Below are positions 21,538 to 23,289 of a DNA stretch of 36,047 bases, one piece after another. This DNA comes from an uncultured Faecalibacterium sp. (lineage in GTDB: Bacteria > Bacillota > Clostridia > Oscillospirales > Ruminococcaceae): the NCBI GenBank assembly GCA_944386015.1, contig CALWZK010000019.1, positions 1 to 36,047 of the forward strand. Reading direction: 5' to 3'. Numbering within the stretch: position 1 is the first letter of the stretch; every line of letters starts with the position of its first letter. The notes under the pieces were generated by a model. The model was not told where the DNA came from. It worked only from the letters and a program-made list of their open reading frames with translations, and made no database searches. The translations under genes were made by a program, and so were the position numbers.

Positions 21538-23289
21538 TTACTGCCCCTTCTTCTGGTACTCGTTCACGAAGGTCCGGGCCTGGTCGATGATGTTCTGACG
21601 GTCGTCGTCGGTCAGCAGGCCGGTGGAGTCGATCCGCTGGCACAGGGCCATATCCTGCTGCTCAAACCAGGCCAGCATCTCGTGCTGGACGTCCTTGATC
21701 TGATCCACGGGGATGGTCTCCAGCACATGGTTCAGGGCGGCCACCAGGGTGATGACCTGCTCGTGCTGGCTCAGGGGATTGTACTGCTTCTGGCGCAGCA
21801 GCCGCATCAGGCCCTGGCCATAGGTCAGCTGGCGCTTGGTGGTCTCGTCCAGATCGCTGGAGAACTGGGTAAAGACCTCCATCTCGCGGTACTGGGCCAG
21901 ATCCAGACGCATGGCGCCGGCGGCCTTCTTCATGGCCTTGGTCTGGGCGTCGCCGCCCACACGGGAAACCGACAGACCAACGTTGACGGCGGGGCGCTGG
22001 CCCGAGAAGAACAGGTTGCTCTCCAGGAACAGCTGGCCGTCGGTGATGGAAATGACGTTGGTGGGGATGTATGCCGAGACGTCGCCGGCCTGGGTCTCGA
22101 TGATGGGCAGGGCGGTCATGCTGCCGCCGCCCTTTTCGTCGGACAGGTGGGCGGAACGCTCCAGCAGACGGCTGTGCAGGTAGAAGACGTCGCCGGGGTA
22201 AGCCTCACGGCCGGGGCTGCGCTCCAGCAGCAGGGACAGGGCACGGTAGGCGATGGCGTGCTTGGACAGGTCGTCGTAGACGATCAGCACGTCCCGGCCC
22301 TGGTGCATGAAGTATTCGCCCAGACTGCAGCCGGCGTAGGGTGCGATGTACTGCAGGGAAGCAGAGTCGCTGGCCGAGGCGTTGACCACGATGCAGTAGT
22401 CCAGGGCGCCGCGGCGGCGCAGGTTCTCGGTGAGCAGGGCCACCGAGCTGGCCTTCTGGCCGATGGCGACGTAGATGCAGACCACGTTCTTGCCCTTCTG
22501 GTTCAGGATGGTGTCCAGGGCCACGGCGGTCTTGCCGGTCTGGCGGTCGCCGATGATCAATTCACGCTGGCCCCGGCCGATGGGGAACAGGGCGTCGATG
22601 GCCAGCAGGCCGGTCTCCATGGGCTTGTTGACCGGCTGGCGGTCGATGATGCCGGGAGCGGGGCGCTCGATGGGGTAGTAGGCGTCGGCCTGGATGGCGT
22701 CGCCGCCGTCGATGGGCTGGCCCAGGGCGTCCACAACGCGGCCCAGGAAGGCGTCGCCCACCGGCATGCCGGCCAGCTTGCCGGTGCGGCGGACGGGGTC
22801 GCCGGCCTCAATGCCGCTGTTGTCGCCGAACAGCACGCAGCACAGCTCGTCGGGGCGCAGCTCCTGCACCATGCCGCGGATGCCGTTGCCGAACTCCAGG
22901 ACTTCGCCGTAGACGGCGTCCTGCAGGCCGGAAATGGTGGCGATGTCATCGGCCACCGTCAGGACAGTGCCGATTTCCTCGGGGCGGGTGCTGGGTTCCC
23001 AGCTGGTGACGGTCTGGCGCATCAGGGGCAGCACGTCCTGGCGGACGTCCAGTGCCTCGATCTTGCGGCGCAGCTGCTCCATGCGGCCCTGCAGGCTCCA
23101 GTCGTAGACATCGGAGCCCACTTCCAGGCGGAAGCCGCCCTTCAGGCTGGCGTCCTTTTTCCAGGTCAGGGTGATGGTGCGGTCGGGGTAGGTCCGGGTC
23201 AGAAAGTCCTCAAACCGCTTGCGCTGCTCGTCGCTGGGAGCCTCAGGGCTGTACAGGAGAGCTGCAGTGGTTGCTTCAGGATTTTTCAT
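21538..23289 (-). CDS. atpA: ATP synthase alpha subunit with fused delta C-terminal domain
   Basis: A 583-residue protein, about 80 longer than a usual alpha subunit. Residues 8-78 match the C-terminal domain of the delta (OSCP) subunit: SDEQRKRFEDFLTRTYPD, ITLTWKKDASLKGGFRLEVG and VYDWSLQGRMEQLRRKIE. Residues about 80-583 are a complete alpha subunit: RPEEIGTVLTVADDIATISG, Walker A GDRQTGKT at 247-254, and SLLLERSPGREAYPGDVFYL. There is no atpH gene between atpF and atpA, and no delta N-terminal domain is found in the operon. ATG at 23289 overlaps the atpF stop by 14 bases and has GAGGAAGG in front. The fusion would fix part of the peripheral stalk onto the alpha subunit. Confidence 0.9.
   Translation of the reverse strand: MKNPEATTAALLYSPEAPSDEQRKRFEDFLTRTYPDRTITLTWKKDASLKGGFRLEVGSDVYDWSLQGRMEQLRRKIEALDVRQDVLPLMRQTVTSWEPSTRPEEIGTVLTVADDIATISGLQDAVYGEVLEFGNGIRGMVQELRPDELCCVLFGDNSGIEAGDPVRRTGKLAGMPVGDAFLGRVVDALGQPIDGGDAIQADAYYPIERPAPGIIDRQPVNKPMETGLLAIDALFPIGRGQRELIIGDRQTGKTAVALDTILNQKGKNVVCIYVAIGQKASSVALLTENLRRRGALDYCIVVNASASDSASLQYIAPYAGCSLGEYFMHQGRDVLIVYDDLSKHAIAYRALSLLLERSPGREAYPGDVFYLHSRLLERSAHLSDEKGGGSMTALPIIETQAGDVSAYIPTNVISITDGQLFLESNLFFSGQRPAVNVGLSVSRVGGDAQTKAMKKAAGAMRLDLAQYREMEVFTQFSSDLDETTKRQLTYGQGLMRLLRQKQYNPLSQHEQVITLVAALNHVLETIPVDQIKDVQHEMLAWFEQQDMALCQRIDSTGLLTDDDRQNIIDQARTFVNEYQKKGQ

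Follow-up and report, generated by a model that had tools for sequence, protein, structure and literature searches.

The open reading frame at 21538-23289 of the window (the whole stretch of DNA that was analysed, 36,047 nucleotides from an uncultured Faecalibacterium sp.) joins the C-terminal domain (CTD) of the ATP synthase delta subunit to a complete alpha subunit. This fusion is real and conserved, a natural counterpart to a design that has otherwise been engineered or mentioned briefly in print. Its product probably works as the alpha subunit of a second F-type ATPase in the genome, in which two or three b dimers would dock on alpha, giving the enzyme more than one peripheral stalk and a raised ion/ATP ratio. 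This reading, a functional alpha together with several stalks, the stalks by analogy with an engineered enzyme, is given a probability of about 0.6.

The fusion gene and its operon

Seven genes, all on the minus strand, form the operon in the order a-c-b-(deltaCTD-alpha)-gamma-beta-epsilon, as identified from open reading frames and profile matches. The fusion is the fourth gene. The features, in gene order, are:

24219-25091, minus strand: subunit a, 290 aa; PF00119, E 8.4e-17
23793-24179, minus strand: subunit c, 128 aa, with a signal-peptide-like N-terminal extension; PF00137, E 5e-16; ion-site residues M, E-T-A, Y
23276-23776, minus strand: subunit b, 166 aa; PF00430, E 1.9e-12; without a PF00213 match
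21538-23289, minus strand: deltaCTD-alpha fusion gene, 583 aa, uninterrupted open reading frame; found in 80 of the 80 loci kept from a scan for relatives
23062-23271, minus strand: delta/OSCP C-terminal domain, aa 7-76 of the fusion; by homology a probable b-dimer docking domain; PF00213
22978-23049, minus strand: linker and alpha N-terminal helix, aa 81-104; from alignment A1, with a helix at 86-96 in the model
21556-23040, minus strand: complete F1 alpha subunit, aa 84-578; TIGR00962, 728.8 bits, and conserved alignment columns
20622-21536, minus strand: subunit gamma, 304 aa; PF00231, E 2.3e-87
19213-20625, minus strand: subunit beta, 470 aa; PF00006, E 2.2e-72
18782-19213, minus strand: subunit epsilon, 143 aa; PF02823 and PF00401

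The F-type ATP synthase subunits a, b, c, alpha, beta, gamma and epsilon are all present, with one copy each of a and b, and the b and fusion genes overlap by 14 bases. No separate delta gene was found in the operon, either among the open reading frames or with PF00213; the C-terminal part of delta sits in alpha. The sequence-only reading of this DNA had described an operon without atpH, and that description holds for the seven genes.

Two other assignments were tried and rejected. Assignment to the N-ATPases is contradicted by the alpha score (627.4 bits, under the TIGR03324 cut-off of 750.5) and by the N-ATPase gene order beta-epsilon-X-X-a-c-b-alpha-gamma, which a-c-b-fusion-gamma-beta-epsilon does not match. 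Assignment as a b-delta fusion is contradicted by b, which is a separate 166-aa frame without a PF00213 match. Across the kept loci, no b and fusion sharing one frame were found under the filter used.

The Pfam OSCP/delta profile PF00213 matches aa 7-76 of the fusion protein over profile positions 102-171 of 172, with 37.8 bits (cut-off 22.3 bits) and E 2.6e-9. Profile positions 1-101, the delta N-terminal part, are unmatched. A full alpha match to TIGR00962 (aa 84-578, 728.8 bits) follows the delta domain. An in-frame joining of the delta-CTD to a complete alpha and the loss of the delta N-terminal domain (NTD), both proposed earlier from the letters of this DNA, are therefore borne out within one uninterrupted frame. 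The conserved columns of the alpha alignment contain the P-loop GDRQTGKT and the segment SRVGG, which we take to be the arginine finger. The P-loop segments are intact in the sequences of both the alpha and the beta of the operon. As a separate observation, the last 70 positions (176-245 of 246) of the N-ATPase b model TIGR03321 also match the fused domain (window 22969-23289, E 0.0015), hinting that the N-ATPase b possibly ends in a delta-CTD-like domain. In ordinary enzymes, according to a recent engineering study (PMC12229609; Nat Commun 2025;16:5410), the delta-CTD binds the b dimer, while the delta NTD lies on the three-fold axis, bound to the alpha N-termini. The segment that ordinarily meets this NTD corresponds to aa 81-104 of the fusion. 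The NTD is referred to below as the cap.

An AlphaFold model of the whole fusion protein has a mean pLDDT of 67.1, with blocks over aa 11-70 at 79-88. For the first 110 residues the mean is 76.6, with blocks of 80-90 over aa 11-80, and the modelled elements are E-H-E-E-E-H followed by a helix at 86-96. When the N-terminal domain was compared by Foldseek, the 17 best matches were delta/OSCP, b-delta or 9jc1 chains, as identified by entry title or from the other searches, at moderate query-length TM scores of 0.44-0.57. The delta/OSCP matches came from bacteria, mitochondria and chloroplasts, and mycobacterial b-delta chains were also among the matches. The fused domain is thus predicted to have the delta C-terminal fold. 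With the whole model as query, chains I, K and J of 9jc1, the engineered enzyme described below, came out on top. A profile of 40 fused N-termini (A1) likewise had 9jc1_I as its best match among PDB sequences (E 9.3e-11). The 9jc1 sequence aligns to residues 9-570 of the window protein, across both parts, and ranks second by E-value after an alpha without delta.

Conservation, spread and origins

A contig scan with the fusion protein gave at least 581 confirmed relatives, which include Faecalibacterium gallinarum, Anaeromassilibacillus, Flintibacter, Acutalibacter, Neglectibacter, Eubacterium ruminantium and many other Clostridia. The best 80 of these at least 581 relatives, 63-97% identical, were kept; having been picked by similarity to the fusion, they inform on conservation and not on frequency. 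All 80 carry the fusion, and in all 80 b is directly upstream or overlapping. A separate delta frame was found in none of the 80 loci with the delta model. The seven genes stand in order in 65 loci, and the remaining 15 are truncated at contig ends or contain overlapping frames that alter the order of listing.

Selection was expressed as the quotient of dN and dS between the window and four Faecalibacterium relatives. The four values were 0.20, 0.29, 0.35 and 0.39 for the delta-CTD and 0.10-0.21 for the alpha core; both parts are under purifying selection. The linker and alpha N-terminal helix gave about 0.8-1.4, over just 24 codons. Values this high would fit a lost cap, which the helix normally binds, although the stretch is short, and the near invariance of some positions over wider distances speaks against full relaxation.

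Two samples that were not chosen for the fusion were used for frequency, namely 393 Clostridia genomes (the source genome included) and 31 genomes of the genus Faecalibacterium. Profile A1 matched 145 of the 393 genomes at E 0.001 or better, and delta-alpha fusions were counted in at least 40 of them. A genome was counted as fused when an A1 match reached the delta part within one uninterrupted frame of at least 500 aa. Left out were stop-interrupted matches, frames of ordinary delta length or shorter, G320 (353 aa), G202 and G161 (alpha N-termini only) and G381 (a partial match in a 757-aa frame). The figure of 40 is a lower bound, drawn from the matches listed; genome G131, fused on closer reading, is absent from it. 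In a phylum-wide sample of 398 genomes, 95 had matches at E 1e-6 or better, a cut-off that weaker fusions would escape. Outside the class, the sole uninterrupted fused frame among the matches listed was in G638 (read as locus L167, a CTD-only fusion).

Four forms are found: a separate delta, a long delta-alpha fusion, a delta-CTD-alpha fusion and a solo delta-CTD gene. Frames of 671-691 aa occur in 11 of the 40 counted genomes. Four such loci were read (L119, L120, L121 and L138), and all four also contain most of the delta NTD. Fusion is thus not coupled to cap loss in all lineages. The solo delta-CTD genes encode 77-89 aa and are flanked by b and by an alpha that has no delta domain (L148:8470-8736, minus strand; L149:5715-5948; L150:5807-6037). 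In family f48 (G131, G378) a split delta was considered and rejected. There, the PF00213 match seemed to begin at position 26-29 with one stop inside, but by position the stretch is the C-terminus of b. As this b matches nearly all of the b model, no separate NTD is seen in f48. In two CTD-fused loci of different families (L139:7097-9454 in G113 and L140:7115-9496 in G204), the gamma frame lacks a stop and continues into beta, giving 786 and 794 aa. At the expected internal start of beta stand an ATG (M-D-Q-K) and a purine-rich stretch resembling a ribosome site, so that free beta may also be made.

Delta content was followed with PF00213 in 24 genomes of other genera, picked non-randomly; 23 of them have a fusion and one, G190, has a solo CTD. 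A full-length separate delta occurs beside the fusion in eight, the fusion occurs without a separate delta over the cut-off in 15, and G190 has the solo CTD alone. PF00213 may miss weak domains, and the fused domain of G009, found by A1, is unlisted at E 0.1. Among the five single-contig genomes of this set, G238, G021, G063 and G131 are fused-only over the delta cut-off, and G190 is the solo-CTD genome. In G063, G131, G186 and G090, the PF00006 matches at E 1e-20 are limited to the fused alpha, its beta and a third, weak one (E 2e-29 to 3e-25), taken for a putative Rho. The fused enzyme seems to be the sole F/V-type ATPase of these four genomes, which argues for its functionality.

A tree of alpha subunits with 103 rows places the window in a paralogous clade of 55 rows (SH-aLRT 100), together with the long-delta fusions, four separate-delta operons and the large set of CTD fusions. 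Outside this clade fall the CTD fusions from three families, f7, f10 and f48, and that of f17 (L147) lies among canonical alphas. A tree of alpha and beta with 27 outside canonical operons agrees. When all 27 fused rows were forced together against those 27 canonical rows, the tree was 58 log units worse (p-AU 0.005, which like the other origin p-values is optimistic, since the groups were named after the first tree and the tree searches were quick). A single group of all fused rows was rejected in two row sets, and so was L147 placed with the other fused rows or with f7/f10/f48 (AU p 0.004 each). With just seven outside canonical rows, the fused rows already lie on one side of a branch (support 94). 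Without L147 and L167, the main-clade and f7/f10/f48 fusions also do so (support 86), and they were therefore not counted as separate origins. Within the main clade, the test of the 40 fused rows against the four separate-delta rows gave p 0.63, and these four rows may lie outside the fusions of the clade. At least two origins of the delta-alpha fusion are supported.

A second ATPase and the number of stalks

The source genome is a draft of 83 contigs, 89.6% complete. A genome search with PF00213 gave three matches: a full-length delta (atpH) on a second contig (G000:C20:3389-3895, E 5.3e-41), the fused domain on contig C19, and a match on C58 under the cut-off (E 0.115) that was taken for chance. 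The C20 delta is part of another operon, which encodes a, c, b, delta (179 aa), alpha (513 aa), gamma and a beta truncated where the contig ends. With a fused and a canonical operon, the cell has two F-ATPases. The sequence-only reading had treated a full-length atpH elsewhere in the genome as grounds for giving up the fusion. Such a gene does exist, and yet the fusion stands, as the atpH on C20 reflects two paralogous enzymes and no error in the fusion.

Across the genus, the fused place is found in 25 of the 31 genomes (in two of them with frames of just 311 and 388 aa) and a full-length separate delta in 24. Both forms occur side by side in all eight single-contig genomes. Six genomes have the fused place without a separate delta, five of them being at most 93% complete. 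In one of the genus genomes (G799:C37:6167-6675) the separate delta seems to be split across two frames, covering positions 1-85 and 87-170, which could be a sequencing error. As 25 of the 31 genus genomes carry it, the fusion is no assembly quirk, and uniqueness to this assembly, the other ground for doubt named beforehand, is excluded by these genomes and by the at least 581 relatives. The chance of an assembly or frameshift artefact is negligible. Nothing was found in its favour, and against it stand the 80 of 80 kept loci, the 25 genus genomes and the eight single-contig ones. The literature searched on two ATP synthases in Faecalibacterium gave nothing on that point.

The two enzymes are also predicted to differ in their ion. 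The Na+ motif of subunit c consists of Gln/Glu32, Glu65, Ser/Thr66, Thr67 and Tyr70. At the ion site, the canonical c of the source genome has E, E-T-T, Y, and the c of the fused operon has M, E-T-A, Y. Among 107 c subunits from fused operons (98 CTD, window included, 5 weak-CTD and 4 long-delta), none has Gln or Glu at the Na+-ligand position of the first helix, versus 25 of 40 in canonical-labelled loci. One missing Na+ ligand marks the H+ type, according to a published account (PMC11738941). By this motif and rule, H+ is predicted as the ion of the fused enzyme and Na+ as that of the canonical one. The c subunits of the main fused clade also carry a signal-peptide-like N-terminal extension and measure about 106-182 aa, versus 72-108 aa in canonical-labelled loci (longest open reading frame).

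In the proposed mechanism, each of the three alpha chains would carry its own delta-CTD. Three such domains per F1, as counted in the earlier reading, follow from the three alphas of any F1. A b dimer would dock on the fused delta-CTD without the N-terminal cap, by homology with 9jc1. As the cap that limits the normal enzyme to one stalk is missing, the fused enzyme would most likely have more than one, formed by two or three b dimers that each pair with a separate a subunit. More ions would then be moved per ATP than by the canonical enzyme of the same cell. A changed attachment of the peripheral stalk, also foreseen in the earlier reading, would be a likely result, judged from the same analogy. 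Three docking sites do not imply three stalks, since few triple-stalk particles were seen for the engineered enzyme (PMC12229609).

This reading of a functional alpha with docked b dimers and more than one stalk is favoured by the domain content, by the match to 9jc1 in both sequence and fold, by the up to three stalks of the engineered enzyme, by the Chloroflexus chain counts given below, by the 15 of 24 picked genomes that are fused-only over the cut-off, by the four picked genomes in which the fused alpha and its beta are the sole strong PF00006 matches, and by the purifying selection on the delta-CTD. Against it stand the mean pLDDT of the whole model, just 67, the lower pump activity of the engineered enzyme, the long fusions that hold most of the NTD, and the full separate delta kept in 24 of the 31 genus genomes. 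It is possible, but less likely, that the fused domain merely replaces delta, so that one delta-CTD binds the b dimer, two stay empty, and a single stalk works at the usual ion/ATP ratio. One a and one b copy in the operon agree with such an enzyme without deciding the question, and the long-delta fusions (L119-L121, L138) suggest that fusion can be plain tethering. However, in the engineered enzyme it was the loss of the NTD that made the two remaining sites available (PMC12229609), and CTD-only forms occur in several parts of the tree, including the solo delta-CTD genes L148-L150.

It is very unlikely that the fused F1 borrows the canonical delta (G000:C20) as a cap and so keeps a normal single stalk. 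A canonical delta is available in the source genome, and in full length in 24 of the genus genomes, but 15 picked genomes, four of them single-contig, have a fusion and no separate delta over the cut-off. The same applies to six genus genomes, although five of those are at most 93% complete. A decaying or non-coupling paralogue, either an F1-only ATPase or a relic operon, is highly improbable. The canonical enzyme in the same genome would allow for it, but the seven genes are intact, the alpha core (dN/dS 0.10-0.21) and the delta-CTD are under purifying selection, and the fused alpha and its beta are the sole strong alpha/beta pair in 4 of the 24 picked genomes. An enzyme with b dimers docked on alpha and more than one stalk is thus the preferred reading.

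A wider proposal can be put forward tentatively, with rather less than even confidence. Faecalibacterium and other gut Clostridia would hold a one-stalk canonical enzyme with a Na+-type c beside a three-stalk, three-a enzyme with an H+-type c that moves two to three times as many protons per ATP, a state reached more than once by delta-alpha joining and cap loss. If this is true, the three-stalk enzyme could synthesize ATP from a proton gradient that is insufficient for ordinary enzymes, or else pump deeply while spending much ATP. The delta N-terminal cap sets the one-stalk rule of F-ATPases, according to the engineering study (PMC12229609). A large cap-less natural family in culturable gut commensals lets one ask whether multi-stalk enzymes are used in life, at what ion/ATP ratio, and why cells keep a cap-less enzyme beside an ordinary one. 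Separate-delta, long-delta-fused, cap-less-fused and solo-CTD forms provide a comparative series for such work.

Relation to known systems

The sequence-only reading had stated that no such fusion was described, and this was mistaken. In the engineering study the delta NTD of the Bacillus PS3 enzyme was removed and the CTD joined to alpha, with the aim that every alpha be able to bear a stalk, and the structure was solved as PDB 9jc1 (PMC12229609). NTD removal and fusion permit up to three stalks in that study. The engineered enzyme averaged roughly two stalks and two a subunits, with up to three seen by cryo-EM, and had 2.2x a, 1.8x b and an H+/ATP ratio of 5.8 +/- 0.4 versus 3.0 +/- 0.2. The scarcity of triple-stalk particles was blamed on loss during grid preparation, and pump activity was lower (PMC12229609). 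The window protein shares with 9jc1 a delta-CTD on the alpha N-terminus without an NTD and, within its operon, the lack of a separate delta. In contrast, 9jc1 is an artificial construct that has a short linker and lacks the epsilon C-terminal domain, whereas the window operon retains the epsilon C-terminal part (PF00401). The window operon also encodes a c with an N-terminal extension, and its genome holds a canonical enzyme as well.

The same study noted a natural NTD-less fusion in Acidaminococcus fermentans as very likely multi-stalk, and similar features in UniProt entries G4Q3K6 and A0A1I2C5T3 (PMC12229609). By that description, the Acidaminococcus case shares the gene fusion and the absence of the delta NTD with the window. 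Acidaminococcus belongs to the Negativicutes, whereas Faecalibacterium belongs to the Clostridia. In the literature searched (titles and the starts of abstracts, with subscription journals mostly outside its scope), the fusion was found only in PMC12229609, and no report on its presence or spread in Clostridia was found. To the extent of that search, four points appear to be new: how widely the fusion is spread in Clostridia, its occurrence beside a canonical enzyme, the existence of intermediate forms, and its having arisen more than once.

In the mycobacterial and Gordonia fusion, delta is joined to b together with the delta NTD, and the b-delta chains in the PDB are 445-448 aa long. This delta/b fusion has been reported for Gordonia and some Mycobacterium (PMC5709465). 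It resembles the window in that delta is shifted onto a neighbour in the stalk, but b is separate in the window operon. N-ATPases, in which delta is reported to be absent or fused with b (PMC11738941), likewise have no separate delta; they differ in gene order, and the window alpha scores under the N-ATPase cut-off.

The fused ATPase can also be compared to the F-type ATP synthase of Chloroflexus aurantiacus. In the PDB 9itj series, a has 36 chains in 18 entries, b has 72 in 18 and delta has 12 in 6, giving on average two a, four b and two delta per entry. These chain counts suggest two stalks and two a subunits. Chloroflexus differs from the window in having separate delta chains of 157 aa, two per entry. 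By its chain counts, multi-stalk F-ATPases seem to occur in nature.
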